This document shows positions 34-57,516 of a stretch of DNA of 64,000 bases, one piece after another. Within the stretch, counting starts at the first letter, position 1. Each line of letters begins with the position of its first letter. A program made the translations under genes and the position numbers. The notes under the pieces were generated by a model. That model searched no databases. It had not been told where the DNA came from and worked only from the letters and a program-made list of their open reading frames with translations. Origin of the DNA: Acidaminococcus fermentans DSM 20731 (GTDB lineage: Bacteria > Bacillota > Negativicutes > Acidaminococcales > Acidaminococcaceae); contig NC_013740.1 of NCBI RefSeq assembly GCF_000025305.1, positions 1 through 64,000 on the forward strand, written 5' to 3'.

Positions 34-1194
34 ATGGCCCGAAAAAAAATGGTGGAACTGGACCTGTTTGCGGAACAGGAACCGGCAGCGGAACCGGAAA
101 AAACGGCGCCCGCTGCCCCTCCGGAGAAGAAATCCCCTGCCTCCCTTCCCCAAAAGCCCTTTGTCACCAACCTTTCTCCCCGCTACACCTTTGACAATTT
201 CGTGGTGGGGAATTCCAACCGGTTTGCCAAGGCGGCGGCCATGGCCGTGGCCAACAATCCGGCCTTCGCCTACAACCCCTTCTTCCTGTTCAGCGATTCC
301 GGACTGGGCAAGACCCATCTGATGAACGCCATCGGCAACCAGATCCGGAAGAATCATCCGGACATGAAGATTCTCTACATTTCCAGCGAAACCTTCACCA
401 ATGAGCTGATCGAGAGCGTGGAGCACAACCGGCTGGAAGCCTTCCGGGAAAAATACCGGAGCATCGACGTGCTGCTCATCGACGACATCCAGTTCCTCCG
501 GAACCGGGAATCCACCCAGGAAGAATTTTTCCACACCTTCAACACCCTAGAAAAGGCCAACAAACAGATCATCATCTCCAGCGACCGGCCTCCCGCCGAA
601 CTGGACACCCTGGAAGAGCGGATGATCAGCCGGTTCAATTCCGGTCTCACCGCCGACATCCAGCATCCGGACCTGGAGACCCGGATGGCCATCCTCCAGA
701 ATCTGGCCCATACGGACAAGGTTCCCTTCCCCAATGATGTGATCCTGCTGATTGCCAGCAGCATTACCAGCAATATCCGGGAACTGGAAGGAGCTTACAA
801 CCGTGTCTGCGCTTATTCCACTGTGTCAAAAGAACCCATCACCCTGGAGCTGTGCCGCAGCGCCCTGAAGGAACTGAATCTCCTGGACACCCCCCAGTTC
901 GTCACTGTGGATGCCATCCAGCAGCAGGTGGCGGACCATTTCCGGCTCCACCGTGCTGAACTGATCGAAAAGAAACGGACCCGGCGGGTGGCGGTACCCC
1001 GGATGATCGCCATTTACCTGACCAAGGAAATGGCCGGTCTTTCCCTGAAGAAAATCGGGGAATGTTTCGGGGGCCGGGACCACAGCACCATCATCCACGC
1101 CTGCGAAAAAATCCAGAAAGACCGGCAGGAGGACCCGGAACTGAACCGGGAAATCGATGCCCTGATCCTGGAATTGAAGAATCGGACGCCCTGA
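34..1194 (+). CDS. DnaA paralogue lacking domain I (second DnaA)
   Basis: A 386-residue AAA+ initiator homologue, clearly related to the full-length DnaA encoded about 2.7 kb downstream. After a short Pro/Glu/Ala-rich leader (about residues 1-43) it goes straight into the AAA+ core, with a Walker A of DSGLGKTH near 88-95, Walker B LLIDD near 147-151, an SRF arginine-finger segment and a sensor-II-like IRELEGA. The C-terminus carries a domain IV helix-turn-helix with the DnaA signature CFGGRDHSTIIHACEKI, so it should bind DnaA boxes. DnaA domain I, normally about 80 residues used for self-assembly and helicase recruitment, is absent. The start is set by a strong AAAGGAGG eight bases upstream. 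Whether it initiates, competes with DnaA or regulates it cannot be told from sequence. Confidence 0.9.
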   Translation: MARKKMVELDLFAEQEPAAEPEKTAPAAPPEKKSPASLPQKPFVTNLSPRYTFDNFVVGNSNRFAKAAAMAVANNPAFAYNPFFLFSDSGLGKTHLMNAIGNQIRKNHPDMKILYISSETFTNELIESVEHNRLEAFREKYRSIDVLLIDDIQFLRNRESTQEEFFHTFNTLEKANKQIIISSDRPPAELDTLEERMISRFNSGLTADIQHPDLETRMAILQNLAHTDKVPFPNDVILLIASSITSNIRELEGAYNRVCAYSTVSKEPITLELCRSALKELNLLDTPQFVTVDAIQQQVADHFRLHRAELIEKKRTRRVAVPRMIAIYLTKEMAGLSLKKIGECFGGRDHSTIIHACEKIQKDRQEDPELNREIDALILELKNRTP

Positions 1195-1331
1195 CAGGAT
1201 GATCCGAATCCGGTCTGAAATATTCCATCAGTGTAACCTTCGTCCCTGCTCTCTGTACAGGGACGGAGGTTTTCTTTTTCTCTCCTGCAGGACTTTTCCA
1301 CAGGCTTTCAGCCTTTTCCACACCCTGGAAC

Positions 1332-1415
1332 CCCCATTAAATGGGCTTATCCACATAGTTATCCACACCTGTGGATAACTTTCAGTGGAAAACTCTCCTC
1401 CCTGTGGAAAACCCG
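1332..1415 (+). repeat. DnaA-box module, copy 1
   Basis: First copy of a module that starts CCCCATT..ATGGGCTTATCC and contains two tandem TTATCCACA boxes, an inverted TGTGGATAA and a trailing TGTGGAAAA. It matches 1597-1681 over nearly its whole length, with scattered substitutions. Confidence 0.8.
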
Positions 1416-1480
1416 AAAAGCCCCATTCCATGCCGTTTATGGGATTTTATCCCCAGAGTTATCCACATGTCCACTGGGAG

Positions 1481-1566
1481 TGGGGCTGTTGCATGAGCAA
1501 CAGCCCCGTCAACGGTCAGCTGTCAATTGTCAACGGCCGCTGGCAGCTGACAGTTGACAATCAAAA
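1481..1566. repeat. Hairpin plus GTCAA-type tandem repeat element inside the origin spacer
   Basis: A GGGGCTGTTGC / GCAACAGCCCC stem (1481-1507 region) is followed by near-tandem GTCAACGGTCA, GTCAATTGTCAAC and CAGCTGACAGTTGACAAT segments that form inverted pairs with each other. Related hairpin-plus-GTCAA units recur near 14276, 17066, 29899, 49592, 54592 and 63083. It separates the two DnaA-box modules. Confidence 0.6.
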
Positions 1567-1596
1567 GATATCCACACCCCCCTGCTCTCTCTCCGG

Positions 1597-1681
1597 CCCC
1601 ATTCCATGGGCTTATCCCCAAAGTTATCCACACCTGTGGATAACTTCCGGTGGAAAACTCCCTTCCCTGTGGAAAACCCGG
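1597..1681 (+). repeat. DnaA-box module, copy 2
   Basis: Second copy of the box module at 1332-1415. The first box is degenerate (TTATCCCCA). The central inverted pair TTATCCACA/TGTGGATAA and the trailing TGTGGAAAA are kept. Confidence 0.8.
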
Positions 1682-1738
1682 AATCCCCTGTTCCGCCGCC
1701 TTCTTTCCTCTTTTTCCCGGGAAGTTATGCACAGGAAC

Positions 1739-1767
1739 CGGACAAACTGCCCGGAATATGCTATACT
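1739..1767 (+). promoter_or_regulatory. Probable promoter of the HTH/coiled-coil gene
   Basis: CGGACA and TATACT separated by 17 bases, with an extended TGC before the -10. A DnaA-box variant TTATGCACA (1725-1733) lies just upstream of the -35, so DnaA control is plausible. Confidence 0.55.
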
Positions 1768-1848
1768 ATATCCATACAACCTTTGGAACTCACCGGTTCC
1801 TGTTCCGTACAACGTTGCCGGAACATTGCAGGACACCGGTTGTCTGGA

Positions 1849-1876
1849 AACCGCTGGAACTTCAGCGGTTTTCTTC
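1849..1876 (+). terminator. Terminator-like hairpin in the leader of the HTH/coiled-coil gene
   Basis: AACCGCTG pairs with CAGCGGTT around a six-base loop, and a T-rich TTCTT follows. It lies between the likely promoter (1739-1767) and the start codon at 1916, so it could be an attenuator. The T-tract is weak. Confidence 0.35.
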
Positions 1877-1915
1877 CTGTTCCGGAAATCTACAGCATAT
1901 TGAGGGATGTCCGCC

Positions 1916-2539
1916 ATGATCACCATCAAAGATTACGCCAAACAAAAAGGGGTTTCCTATGAAGCCATCCGCAAACAGATCAAACGGTATGAGAACGAAC
2001 TGGAAGGCCATCTGGTCAAACAGAACCGTTTCCTGATGCTGGATGACGAAGCCGTCCAGTTCCTGGACAGCAAGCGTTCGGAAAACCCCGTCATCGTCTA
2101 TGAACAGAACAAGGATGAAGAACTGGAGCAGCTCCGGCACGAAAACAAGGTGCTGCTGATCCAGATGAATACCGTCCAGGACCAGCTGGGCAAAGTCCAG
2201 CAGAAGCTCATTGCGGAAATGAACACCACCAAACTGCTGACCCAGGAAAAAGTCCATTACCTGGAATACAAGGCCCAGTCCGAACAAAAGGAAATCCAGC
2301 TGAAAGATCTGGCCCGGGCCCGAGATGCCGCCCAGGCCAAAGCCGACCAGCAGGAAGCGGTGCTGCGGCTGAAAGAACAGCAGATCGGCGCCCTGTCCGC
2401 CGCCAAGGAAACGGCGGCCGCCAGCCTGAAAGCCGCTGATGAACGGATCGCCCAGGCGGAAGCCCGGGCCAAAGCGGCGGAAGAAGAAGCCTCCCGGCTG
2501 AAGAACCGCAGTTTCTGGGACCGTCTGTTCAACCGCTGA
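1916..2539 (+). CDS. HTH/coiled-coil DNA-binding protein within the origin region
   Basis: A 207-residue protein of unknown function. The N-terminus (about residues 1-55) looks like a MerR/Rep-type helix-turn-helix (MITIKDYAKQKGVSYEAIRK) followed by a YLSE-like wing. From about residue 65 to 195 it is an almost uninterrupted Gln/Glu/Lys/Ala-rich coiled coil. It ends in an aromatic-basic tail, SFWDRLFNR, that could form a short amphipathic helix. The start at 1916 is preferred over an ATG at 1907 because the GAGGG lies about 9 bases before 1916 and almost touches 1907. The layout resembles plasmid RepX/KfrA-type proteins, known family features rather than proven homology. Its position between two DnaA-box clusters and two dnaA genes suggests a role in origin binding or segregation. 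Confidence 0.8.
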   Translation: MITIKDYAKQKGVSYEAIRKQIKRYENELEGHLVKQNRFLMLDDEAVQFLDSKRSENPVIVYEQNKDEELEQLRHENKVLLIQMNTVQDQLGKVQQKLIAEMNTTKLLTQEKVHYLEYKAQSEQKEIQLKDLARARDAAQAKADQQEAVLRLKEQQIGALSAAKETAAASLKAADERIAQAEARAKAAEEEASRLKNRSFWDRLFNR

Positions 2540-2750
2540 TCCATGCTTCTCAACAGGGAGTTATCCACAGCTGTGGATAACTCCCTGTGTATAACCTGCC
2601 TTTTGTGGATAACCGGAACTGCCCATGGTACGGCCCCGCCGGCAGGAACTGACAGAAAAGTTATCCACACTGTCCACAGGTTTTTCCACAGGAGCGGCCT
2701 GTTTCGTGATATAATGAAGTCTCTATTAAAGAATAAAGGATGGATCGGAT
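2540..2750. other. DnaA-box cluster B and dnaA promoter region
   Basis: This spacer contains a perfect 30-base palindrome (2557-2586) made of two abutting, oppositely oriented TTATCCACA boxes. Further boxes are TGTGTATAA at 2586, TGTGGATAA at 2604, TTATCCACA at 2661 and TTTTCCACA at 2682. The boxes run directly into the dnaA promoter, as expected of an autoregulated initiator gene. Confidence 0.85.
2707..2715 (+). promoter_or_regulatory. Extended -10 promoter of dnaA
   Basis: TGATATAAT is an extended -10 element with no good -35 at 16-18 bases. A TTTTCCACA box (2682-2690) occupies the place of the -35, which suggests direct repression or activation by DnaA. Transcription would start about 30 bases before the ATG at 2751. 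Confidence 0.55.
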
Positions 2751-4139
2751 ATGATGACGAAGAACCTGGCCCAGATTTGGGCCGAAATGCTGGCTGCCCT
2801 GTCCGCCAGTTTTGAAGGCAGAAGCTGGAAAATCTGGCTGGATGCCGCACACCCCCGTACCCTGGAGGAAAATACCCTTTCCCTGGATGTACCCAACGAT
2901 TTCACCAAAAACACCCTTCAGGAAAAATACCTGCCCATCATGGAAGAAAGCCTTTCCCAGATCTGCGGAAAACCCATGAAGGTCCAGATCGATGTGGTGG
3001 AAACCGCCAAGGAAGGGCCCTCCCTGTTCCCGGACGCACCGGCCCAGCCTGCACCGGAACCGGCGGCAGTCCAGCCGGAACCCCAGCCGGCCGCCAAACC
3101 CGCCCAGGAATTCGATTCCCATCTGTCTCCCAAATACACCTTCGACAATTTCATCCGGGGCAAATCCAATGAGGAAGCCTTCAACTTCTCCATGGGGGTG
3201 GCCAACGCGCCGGCCAAAAGCTACAATCCCCTGTTTCTCTACAGCGATCCCGGCCTGGGGAAAACCCACCTGATGAACGCCATCGGCAACTATATCCACA
3301 AGAAATTCCCCCAGATGAAAATCCTCTACACCTCCAGTGAAACCTTCACCAACGAACTGATCGGCGCCATCCAGCACAACACCAACGAAGCCTTCCGGAA
3401 CAAATACCGGAACATCGATGTGCTGCTCATCGACGATATCCAGTTCCTGCGGAAAAAGGAATCCACCCAGGAAGAATTCTTCCATACCTTTGAAGCCCTG
3501 AAACAGGCGGACAAGCAGATCATCATCTCCAGCGACCGGCCGCCCAAAGAACTGGACACCCTGGAAGAACGGCTCACCAGCCGGTTCATGCAGGGGCTGA
3601 TCATCGAAATCAACCATCCTGATTTTGAAACCCGCAGTGCCATCCTCCGGAGCATGGCGGAAAAAGACCATCTGGAATTCCCCCTGGAAGTGATCCAGCT
3701 GATCGCCACCAATGTAAAGACCAACATCCGGGAACTGGAAGGAGCCTATACCAAAGTCCATGCCTTCGCCAACCTGAACCATCAGCCGGTGACCATGGAA
3801 CTGGCCCGGAAAGCCCTGAAGGATCTGGATATGGGCAGTGCCGTGGACAAGGTGATCACCGTGGAAGCCATCCAGGAGCTGGTGGCCTCCCGGTACAAGA
3901 TCCGGGTGGAGGATCTGAAAGCCAAGAAACGGACCCGTTCCATCGCCTATCCCCGGCAGATCGCCATGTATCTCACCCGGGAACTGACGGACCTTTCCCT
4001 GCCCCGGATCGGAGAGTGTTTCGGGGGCCGGGACCACACCACCGTCCTCCATGCCTGCGACAAGATCTCCGAGGACAAGAAAAATGACGCCAATCTGGAG
4101 CGGCAGCTGGCCAAACTGGTGGAAGACCTGAAGAAATGA
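2751..4139 (+). CDS. dnaA: Chromosomal replication initiator DnaA
   Basis: A 462-residue initiator with all four domains. Domain I (about 1-85) includes a SWKIWL core. Domain II is a Pro/Ala/Gln-rich linker (about 90-120). The AAA+ domain has Walker A SDPGLGKTH near 165-173 and Walker B LLIDD, and the domain IV signature is CFGGRDHTTVLHACDKI. It assembles on DnaA boxes in the flanking spacers, opens the duplex and recruits the helicase. Both DnaA proteins here have SDxG where many DnaAs have GGxG at the start of the P-loop, so the two probably share a recent ancestor. Two adjacent ATGs exist at 2751 and 2754; AAAGGATGG lies upstream. It is followed by a third box cluster and dnaN. Confidence 0.97.
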   Translation: MMTKNLAQIWAEMLAALSASFEGRSWKIWLDAAHPRTLEENTLSLDVPNDFTKNTLQEKYLPIMEESLSQICGKPMKVQIDVVETAKEGPSLFPDAPAQPAPEPAAVQPEPQPAAKPAQEFDSHLSPKYTFDNFIRGKSNEEAFNFSMGVANAPAKSYNPLFLYSDPGLGKTHLMNAIGNYIHKKFPQMKILYTSSETFTNELIGAIQHNTNEAFRNKYRNIDVLLIDDIQFLRKKESTQEEFFHTFEALKQADKQIIISSDRPPKELDTLEERLTSRFMQGLIIEINHPDFETRSAILRSMAEKDHLEFPLEVIQLIATNVKTNIRELEGAYTKVHAFANLNHQPVTMELARKALKDLDMGSAVDKVITVEAIQELVASRYKIRVEDLKAKKRTRSIAYPRQIAMYLTRELTDLSLPRIGECFGGRDHTTVLHACDKISEDKKNDANLERQLAKLVEDLKK

Positions 4140-4386
4140 TGCTCCAGTTATCCACAAGTTGTGGATAATCTTGTGTATAACTTGTTGGTAATTTTGTGGA
4201 TAACACGGAAAGTCCCTGAAAAAGTGGATATGTGGATAAGTGAAAACCGGTTATCCACAGAGTTATCCCATCGGTTCCCACAGCCTGGAATGGGCCTGGA
4301 CGGACTTTTCCACATACCCACAGGCCCTACTACGAAGACTACGAATTTTTATAATTTCATCGTTTTAGAAACAAGGAGGTACTGTC
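4140..4386. other. DnaA-box cluster C and probable duplex-unwinding element (oriC)
   Basis: Boxes TTATCCACA or its complement occur at 4148, 4160, 4195, 4231 and 4251, with TGTGTATAA at 4172 and TTTTCCACA at 4306. The last box is followed by TACCCACAGG, a GGCC-rich step, then CTACTACGAAGACTACGA and an AT-rich run (4343-4375). That order of box, GC step, TAC-type trinucleotides and AT tract is the known layout of the Bacillus unwinding region with its DnaA-trio. This makes the dnaA-dnaN spacer the best candidate for the site of initial melting. The dnaN ribosome site (AAGGAGG) ends the region. Confidence 0.75.
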
Positions 4387-5514
4387 ATGCAGTTTTCATG
4401 TGAAAGCAAAGAACTGGCTCAAAGCGTCAATATCGTGAAAAGAGCCATTTCATCCAGCAATAACGCACCGATCTTTTCCGGGATCCATGCCATTCTCCAG
4501 GGAAACACCCTGCAGTTGATTGCCATGGACAATACCTATATGATGAACAAGAAACTGGACGTAAACGGAGAGGAGGACGGCGAACTCCTGATCCCCGCCA
4601 AGGCCATCGGGGATCTGCTGGCCCGTTTCGATCCGGACGAAGTGCTCACCGTCCAGCAACTGCCCGGTGAAAAAGAAATGACCCTGAAAGCCGCCAAAGC
4701 CCGGGGCCAGTACCACATTCCCCTGATGGATCCGGAAGAATATCCGGCCATGCCCCTGCTCCAGGGGGACCGGACCCTGCAGCTCCCGGAAGAAATCATG
4801 GGAAAGCTGATCTCCACCACGGTTTATGCCTGTTCCACCGATGCCAGCCGGCCGCTGTACACCGGGGTCTATCTGGAAAAGTCCGGACAGCATCTGACGG
4901 CTGTCGGGACCAACACCCATCGGCTGGCCATCAAGGAAGTGGAACTGCCGGAAGGGGATGACAGCGAATTTTCCATGCTGATTCCCGCCCGTCTCCTGAA
5001 GGAAATCGGCAGCAACCTGAATGGAGAACTGCCGGAACCGGTGGTCCTGACCCTGAAAGAACGGCAGATCATGGCCCAGGTGGGAAGCTTGACTATTATT
5101 TCAAGCCTGATTGAAGGAAAATTTCCTGATTACAAACGACCCATTCCTCCGTCCTTCAGCAACCGGACGGTTTTCAACCGGGTGGATATGGAAAAAGCCA
5201 TCCAGCGGGTCTCTCTGTTCTCCCAGTCCGATTACAACATTGTCCGGCTGGCCATCGATGCGGACGGAATTACCCTGTCTTCAGCGGTCAGCGACATGGG
5301 CCAGGGGAAGGAAATCATCGCCTGCCAGACGGTGGGAGACAACCTGCCCCTGAACATCGCCTTCAATTCCCGGTACATGACCGATTTCTTCAAGAACTGC
5401 GGCACGGACCGGGTAAGCCTGGAAACCAACCAGTCCCTGTCTCCGGCCCGGCTCATGCCGGAAGGGGATGAGAGCTATACCTATATCCTGACCCCGGTAC
5501 GGGTTATTTTCTAA
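4387..5514 (+). CDS. dnaN: DNA polymerase III sliding clamp beta subunit
   Basis: A 375-residue beta clamp made of three repeated clamp folds. It forms the ring that tethers the replicative polymerase to DNA. The N-terminus MQFSCESKELAQSVNIVKRA and the C-terminal YILTPVRVIF are typical, the latter close to the hydrophobic partner-binding pocket. Length matches the family. The start is set by AAGGAGG with suitable spacing. It overlaps recF by one base (TAATG), indicating translational coupling. Confidence 0.97.
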   Translation: MQFSCESKELAQSVNIVKRAISSSNNAPIFSGIHAILQGNTLQLIAMDNTYMMNKKLDVNGEEDGELLIPAKAIGDLLARFDPDEVLTVQQLPGEKEMTLKAAKARGQYHIPLMDPEEYPAMPLLQGDRTLQLPEEIMGKLISTTVYACSTDASRPLYTGVYLEKSGQHLTAVGTNTHRLAIKEVELPEGDDSEFSMLIPARLLKEIGSNLNGELPEPVVLTLKERQIMAQVGSLTIISSLIEGKFPDYKRPIPPSFSNRTVFNRVDMEKAIQRVSLFSQSDYNIVRLAIDADGITLSSAVSDMGQGKEIIACQTVGDNLPLNIAFNSRYMTDFFKNCGTDRVSLETNQSLSPARLMPEGDESYTYILTPVRVIF

Positions 5515-13599: not shown

Positions 13600-13760
13600 G
13601 AACCCTGTGGATATCCTGTGCACAAAGGAAATCGGAGGACTGGATATTGTGGGGTGAACAGGGATTTGCACTATATCTGGGACTTACCCACAAGGTTATC
13701 CACAGGAAATGTGGATAACCTTGGCGTTTTTGTGGATAAGCCTGTTGATAAGTGGAAAAC
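13600..13760. promoter_or_regulatory. DnaA-box cluster D downstream of gyrA
   Basis: TTATCCACA at 13696 and TGTGGATAA at 13710 form a palindrome, AAGGTTATCCACA/TGTGGATAACCTT, around five bases (13692-13722). Another TGTGGATAA lies at 13731, with weaker matches at about 13604 and 13742. It is 9 kb from oriC and directly upstream of the YbjN-like gene, so it may titrate DnaA or control that gene. Confidence 0.7.
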
Positions 13761-24394: not shown

Positions 24395-24481
24395 ATACAA
24401 GCTTTCTCCTTGAGAAAGCAACAGACAAAAGGTTTCTCAACAACAGAATGTTTCAACTGAAACATTGAAAGAAAAAAGTTG

Positions 24482-57429: not shown

Positions 57430-57516
57430 ATACAAGCTTTCTCCTTGAGAAAGCAACAGACAGAAGGTTTCTCAACAACAGAATGTTTCAACTGAAACAT
57501 TGAAAGAAAAAAGTTG

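Follow-up and report, generated by a model that had tools for sequence, protein, structure and literature searches.

The DNA analyzed here, referred to as the window, spans bases 1-64000 of NC_013740.1, the single, circular contig (2,329,769 bp) of Acidaminococcus (A.) fermentans DSM 20731. The locus at its beginning is composed of a gene for a short DnaA (dnaA_S), a gene for an HTH/coiled-coil protein (HTHcc), a gene for a full-length DnaA (dnaA_L) and dnaN, where all genes from dnaA_S to gyrA are found on the plus strand (Table 1). Open reading frames and domain calls bear out the order, coordinates and shared strand given for the first four genes in an earlier note on this DNA. A search of the whole genome yielded two dnaA matches; a third AAA+ match was only distant.

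Table 1. Features of the A. fermentans origin region, in positions of the window.
Feature	Position	Strand	Remarks
RBS of dnaA_S	7 nt 5' of ATG	+	GAAAGGAGG
dnaA_S (short DnaA, 386 aa)	34..1194	+	domains III (AAA+) and IV (DNA-binding) present, domain I absent
Five-box module A1	1359..1467		boxes at +0, +11, +25, +44, +100; extra box at 1347
Five-box module A2	1624..1733		directly upstream of HTHcc promoter
Promoter-like site of HTHcc	1739..1767	+	extended -10 TGCTATACT; consensus match only; conserved in four genomes
Operator- or centromere-like element	1775..1848		TACAACCTTTGGAAC; palindrome ACAACGTTG at 1809; inverted GTTGT at 1839
HTHcc (HTH/coiled-coil gene, 210 aa)	1907..2539	+	predicted MerR-type winged HTH, long coiled coil, C-terminal SFWDRLFNR
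Five-box module B	2561..2669		upstream of dnaA_L; further box at 2682
dnaA_L (full-length DnaA, 462 aa)	2751..4139	+	domain I present; divergent GKSNEEAFNFS motif in AAA+ domain
Cluster C boxes	4148..4314		offsets 0, 12, 24, 47, 83, 103, 158
BUS-like unwinding region	4306..4370	+	TTTTCCACA-TACCCACA-GGCC-CTACTACGAAGACTACGAA-TTTTTATAATTT
dnaN	4387..5514	+	then recF, dciA, gyrB, gyrA

The presence of two dnaA genes in this organism has been published previously, i.e., the core observation is correct but not new. According to the portion of Gao 2015 (PMC4403523) drawn on here, both genes and the box clusters were described, the configuration was called "unique", two bipartite origins were proposed and a duplication was suggested; the locus and coordinates of this double dnaA/double oriC (also in DoriC) are identical to those in Table 1. 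That portion of the text is silent on the gene for the HTH/coiled-coil protein, the absence of domain I from the short DnaA, the occurrence of the locus in related genomes, the arrangement of boxes in modules and the restriction of unwinding to one region. New relative to that report are the four box-bearing spacers, the single unwinding region, the distribution, the divergence of the two proteins and the plasmid kinship of HTHcc.

Among 59 genomes of the family, dnaA_S is found in exactly four, HTHcc is found in the same four, and the gene order is constant. The earlier note had suggested a comparison of synteny across Acidaminococcus and its relatives; the arrangement is syntenic, intact and selected in these four of the nine genus genomes, but it is not general, because the other five and the rest of the family harbor a single dnaA at the origin. 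The remaining family genomes with a match have one dnaA each, except G055 and G032, the assemblies of which are fragmented and in part contaminated; here, each second match resides on a contig of its own. In G055 this second dnaA (40% identical) is followed by a dnaN only 26% identical to the one here, on a short contig (contig 129, L056, 7.5 kb), and is probably a contaminant. Pairwise dN/dS values among the four genomes (dnaA_S, 0.08-0.18; dnaA_L, 0.09-0.25; HTHcc, 0.06-0.16) are similar to those of the neighboring dnaN (0.07-0.15) and recF (0.11-0.16), and both dnaA_S and HTHcc are under purifying selection. That the locus is a chance insertion or a decaying duplicate, as its restriction to four of nine genus genomes could suggest, is so improbable that it can be set aside, because the arrangement is conserved, with intact reading frames, constant order, dN/dS far below 0.3 in every pair and conserved module spacing.

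In trees of DnaA built on domains III-IV, the S copies and the L copies each form one clade with 100/100 support, nested with the single-dnaA members of the genus (96-99/95-96). In both clades the stem is long (0.38-0.58) and the crown short, and the branching order of the species is repeated identically in the two. The tree thus places the duplication inside the genus Acidaminococcus; acquisition of dnaA_S by horizontal transfer from a distant donor was ruled out by the same tree. All three arrangements of the single-dnaA relative G001, S and L are statistically allowed, such that duplication before or after the split of G001 both fit. Presumably, a unit composed of a five-box module (described below) and dnaA was duplicated in tandem within one Acidaminococcus lineage, after which the copies would have specialized.

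Matches to the DnaA-box sequence TTWTNCACA are found 38 times in the window, as compared to 3.7 expected from shuffles (0 of 100 reach 38), and 24 of these are located at 1294-4314. A further cluster (cluster 0) resides just upstream of base 1, i.e., at the other end of the contig (genome about 2329570-2329746); it was missed in the earlier note because the edge of the window hid this region. The three clusters described there are real and far above chance, but the box-bearing spacers number four, and the spacer between dnaA_S and HTHcc (spacer A), taken as one cluster, contains two copies of a five-box module. In this module, the boxes are located at offsets 0, 11, 25, 43-45 and 100-114, a spacing that is near-fixed in the 21 modules compared. 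The module precedes dnaA in single-dnaA members of the genus, and genomes with two dnaA genes carry it four times, once 5' of dnaA_S, twice in the spacer that separates dnaA_S from HTHcc and once 5' of dnaA_L. Module B corresponds to the module preceding dnaA in single-dnaA relatives, while the layout of cluster C is that of the dnaA-dnaN spacer of G001 and unlike the five-box module. Between modules A1 and A2 an imperfect inverted repeat, GTCAGCTGTCAATTGTCAAC...CAGCTGACAGTTGACAATC, is found at 1510-1563, a position at which G003 and G008 hold other inserts.

The boxes themselves fall into classes. In the three S-side modules, box 4 is TTTTCCACA in 12 of 12 cases and box 3 is TTTTCCAC[ATC] in 11 of 12, and module B has TTATCCACA and TTAT[AG]CACA in all four genomes, where it should be noted that this comparison is post hoc. 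The split is compatible with each DnaA protein having preferred sites of its own, although the TTTTCCACA common to the S-side modules may merely reflect copying of one module into the others. Distant from the origin spacers, a smaller trio of DnaA boxes (+,-,-) is found at 13696-13739, just 3' of gyrA, and groups of boxes likewise reside 3' of gyrA in the relatives G006 (L045) and G001 (L042).

A sequence of the unwinding type, i.e., box-box-GC-CTACTA followed by an AT-rich stretch, is found only in the dnaA-dnaN spacer (cluster C), within which lie also the most AT-rich 40 bp of the origin region; no BUS-like sequence was found in clusters 0 and A. The GC-skew minimum is located at about 5.5 kb. 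Under the strict BUS rule (PMC8287927), three or more NAN trios follow the DnaA box(es) at a distance of no more than 16 bp. Applied to the box at 4306-4314, it identified a 12-bp spacer and then CTA CTA CGA AGA CTA CGA, i.e., two consecutive trios only; G001 fails likewise, whereas the relatives G002, G005, G007 and G020 pass, and the trios of the A. fermentans spacer are thus degenerate. In the bipartite oriC of Bacillus (B.) subtilis (PMC8287927, PMC6669920), boxes similarly precede dnaA and a sequence of the unwinding type separates dnaA from dnaN, but the A. fermentans origin differs in having four upstream modules, two dnaA genes and degenerate trios.

Because the unwinding-type sequence is restricted to the dnaA-dnaN spacer, our reading of the sequence is that of a single origin with an enlarged upstream half rather than two origins. 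The term "composite origin" used in the earlier note should be corrected, in that the four modules are copies of the element found 5' of dnaA where relatives have a single dnaA, and there is one unwinding spacer. Two working origins side by side, one for each dnaA, as listed in DoriC and proposed in Gao 2015, would account for the box clusters that flank both dnaA genes; yet clusters 0 and A lack the BUS-like sequence, the modules in them copy nothing but the upstream element, and the dnaA-dnaN-type layout is found once, which makes this proposal very unlikely.

Both proteins are recognizable as DnaA, with TIGR00362 scores of 492 and 546 bits at a cut-off of 344, and in the AAA+ domain of both the Walker A and B motifs, the Arg finger R285 and the sensor-2 R334 are intact. 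Domain I (PF11638) is found in DnaA_L, but none is present in DnaA_S in any of the four carrying genomes; the start of DnaA_S coincides with the domain I/II border and has a good ribosome-binding site. Because domain I is missing, DnaA_S is described here as a DnaA paralogue, not a complete DnaA. In this respect it resembles Hda (HdaA), a DnaA-related AAA+ protein without domain I and with a short, possibly clamp-binding N-terminal motif (ELDLF in DnaA_S), but unlike Hda, DnaA_S retains domain IV (a Bac_DnaA_C match), and its score against the Hda family TIGR03420 is 101.8 bits, below the cut-off of 194.8. Domain II has a short xLF motif with acidic residues after it in 21 of 25 full-length DnaAs of the family (the corresponding positions in the window are 34-78 and 3012-3035); in DnaA_S this motif is the ELDLF at the extreme N-terminus and resembles the clamp-binding QLDLF. 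The clamp-linked regulator YabA is absent from the nine genus genomes.

Of the base-contact set R399, P423, D433, H434 and T435, all residues are kept in DnaA_L, while DnaA_S has P423K and T435S. The changes P423K and R424K (E. coli numbering) are fixed in all four genomes, and a Ser at the T435 position is also found in several relatives. Residue P423 is among those reported to contact bases (PMC5043019, PMC7561715), but P423K may not alter recognition, because DnaA of H. pylori has a Leu at this position without a clear change in specificity (PMC5043019). The ancestral GNSNRFAxAA motif of the AAA+ domain is retained in DnaA_S; in DnaA_L it is replaced by GKSNEEAFNFS in 4/4 genomes, with N145K, R148E, F149E, A152N and A153F as fixed changes (residue of the relatives first, E. 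coli numbering). The divergence is complementary: DnaA_S lost domain I and altered a base contact, DnaA_L altered GNSNRFA, and the box classes seem to have diverged alongside.

As regards the biochemical roles of DnaA_S, DnaA_L and HTHcc, all of which we infer, the chromosome origin would open in the dnaA-dnaN spacer, its upstream half having been enlarged in one Acidaminococcus lineage. DnaA_L, with domain I and canonical box contacts, would be the main initiator at this spacer. DnaA_S would most likely be a regulatory partner, which would occupy its own modules, enriched in TTTTCCACA, repress promoters linked to these modules and enter mixed oligomers with DnaA_L. Because E. coli DnaA without domain I is still able to unwind DNA (PMC5448010), DnaA_S may open DNA, but it cannot engage in domain I contacts; lacking this domain it would tune initiation, as a brake more likely than an activator.

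The five-box module sits 5' of genes and its boxes may, for this reason, serve mainly transcription. In one alternative, DnaA_S would be a transcription factor or titrating protein only, acting outside the initiation complex, and the modules would be autoregulated promoters. DnaA is a known autorepressor, and modules 0, A2 and B each precede a gene with an adjacent promoter-like sequence. However, the Arg finger, sensor 2 and the nucleotide-binding residues of the AAA+ domain, which are needless for a pure DNA binder, are kept in DnaA_S, and we consider such a restricted role rather unlikely.

The main rival, and the more surprising outcome, is a split initiator, in which neither DnaA is enough and the origin would open only when both are present in one filament; DnaA_L would contribute domain I and standard box binding, and DnaA_S the intact GNSNRFA motif. 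Consistent with such a division, each copy altered a region that is kept by the other copy and by the single-dnaA relatives, and both stems are accelerated while both crowns are constrained. On the other hand, DnaA_L keeps every catalytic residue checked and may thus act alone, and on balance mutual dependence of the two proteins is unlikely. Our preferred reading remains that of DnaA_L as the main initiator and DnaA_S as its regulatory partner.

The HTHcc protein yielded no match to any curated family. Its closest relatives are located on small plasmids. One relative, with 42% identity (E 1e-17), is found on the Rep_3 plasmid pRGI00142, where its gene adjoins the Rep_3 gene; another adjoins a Rep_3 gene on pRJF2, and a third is located beside a Mob relaxase on the small contig L079. 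Further relatives are found on one Clostridium MAG contig and one viral contig, and others, with different tails, on Butyrivibrio contigs that are chromosomal in appearance. On pRGI00142 the relative directly precedes a gene for a D12-class adenine methyltransferase (L061 5251-6069). An origin as a phage gene was considered and rejected, with no match in phage records and one relative in the viral contig collection.

The N-terminal domain is predicted (AF2) to fold as helix-helix-wing-helix, i.e., a MerR-type winged HTH, in a model made from nine relatives; a first model from four sequences gave no useful fold match. For this domain, the best VIA match is the DNA-binding domain of pSK1 Par bound to centromere DNA (8csh, Z 8.1, rmsd 1.3, 53/53 residues), with MerR proteins and RacA next, within 1 Z of pSK1 Par. 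The coiled coil is predicted as one helix of 144 residues (65-208, pLDDT mostly over 90), and the C-terminal SFWDRLFNR is invariant in the four genomes, with a hydrophobic moment of the tail of 0.45 (rank 23 of 200 stretches). This plan is like that of Streptococcus RocS and pSK1 Par, which have an N-terminal winged HTH, a coiled coil and a short C-terminal amphipathic stretch (PMC11500499); the tail of HTHcc may correspond to this stretch as a putative membrane-binding helix. In contrast to these proteins, HTHcc has a longer coiled coil and resides inside oriC between two dnaA genes, and DUF536 (PF04394) gave no match in HTHcc or in the nine genus genomes (E 0.1); because DUF536 is missing, HTHcc is not classed as a member of this group. 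RacA of B. subtilis also has a MerR-type winged HTH (5i44, Z 7.4) followed by a coiled coil, but its gene is not found between dnaA copies. The binding site and context of RacA differ from those of HTHcc.

The palindrome ACAACGTTG is located between the promoter and the start of HTHcc, within a conserved leader in which no known RNA or riboswitch was found. The same palindrome is found upstream of the homologues in pRGI00142, L080 (twice) and L084, with a variant upstream of the L079 homologue. With no motif preset, the 10-mer ACAACGTTGT is common to 4 of 8 upstream regions (0 of 1000 dinucleotide shuffles reach 4), where the two-dnaA cassette was represented by G003 and the copy in the window differs in the last base; it lies upstream of both plasmid and viral-contig relatives. 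Because the palindrome is shared with plasmid relatives, the HTHcc gene and its site appear to have traveled together.

The plasmid-borne relatives and the partition-protein-like predicted fold of HTHcc speak for tethering or partition no less than for a control of initiation, and the "dedicated regulators" of the earlier note remain an inference. The HTHcc gene would be a captured plasmid par-like locus, the product of which probably binds the palindrome in its own leader and controls its own expression, while the coiled coil and the putatively amphipathic tail would tether the origin to the membrane or nucleoid. As ParB and a perfect parS are found in the same genome, HTHcc would add to ParB/parS rather than replace it, and a role in partition would be partly redundant. 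The perfect parS is located at genome 2307842-2307857, about 22 kb upstream of the origin, and parB at 2304231-2304752. Alternatively, HTHcc would be an ordinary local MerR-fold regulator unrelated to partition, which arrived with a plasmid remnant and has no target other than itself or dnaA_L. The Z scores of MerR regulators and Par differ by less than 1, DUF536 is absent and the leader site has one perfect copy only in the genome; but the winged HTH, 144-residue helix and FWxRLF tail fit Par/RocS-type proteins better than MerR sensors, as do the plasmid relatives that adjoin rep genes. An ordinary regulator is possible, although on the improbable side.

The anatomy of the locus, its conservation, the duplication within the genus, the complementary divergence, the plasmid kinship and the shared palindrome are shown by the analysis. 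The scheme built on them, a duplicated, specialized initiator pair and a captured plasmid par-like locus at one origin that is opened in the dnaA-dnaN spacer, is about as likely as not. A stronger version, in which the initiator is split into two co-evolved DnaAs, each with its own class of boxes, and the two genes enclose a partition locus of plasmid origin (gene and palindrome) that still works, is doubtful. To our knowledge, DnaA is almost always encoded by one gene, and it is mainly laboratory mutation that has taken its parts apart. A natural duplication within a genus of gut bacteria, with close single-copy relatives as controls, allows a direct comparison of what domain I, the AAA+ motif and the box classes do, i.e., it is a natural test of one starter protein split in two and of a plasmid upkeep gene settling in a chromosome origin, where HTHcc connects plasmid maintenance systems with the origin.

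Two identical parS-like sites, TGTTTCAACTGAAACA (2 mismatches), are found at 24449-24464 and 57484-57499, 33 kb apart, both in stretches of similar strong GC skew that are perhaps duplicated (rRNA?) regions. Just upstream of the origin (L004 8860-8935), short imperfect tandem repeats of ACTAGTCTCTAGTC separate a long PAS/GGDEF/EAL-like gene from a glutamine-amidotransferase-like gene.
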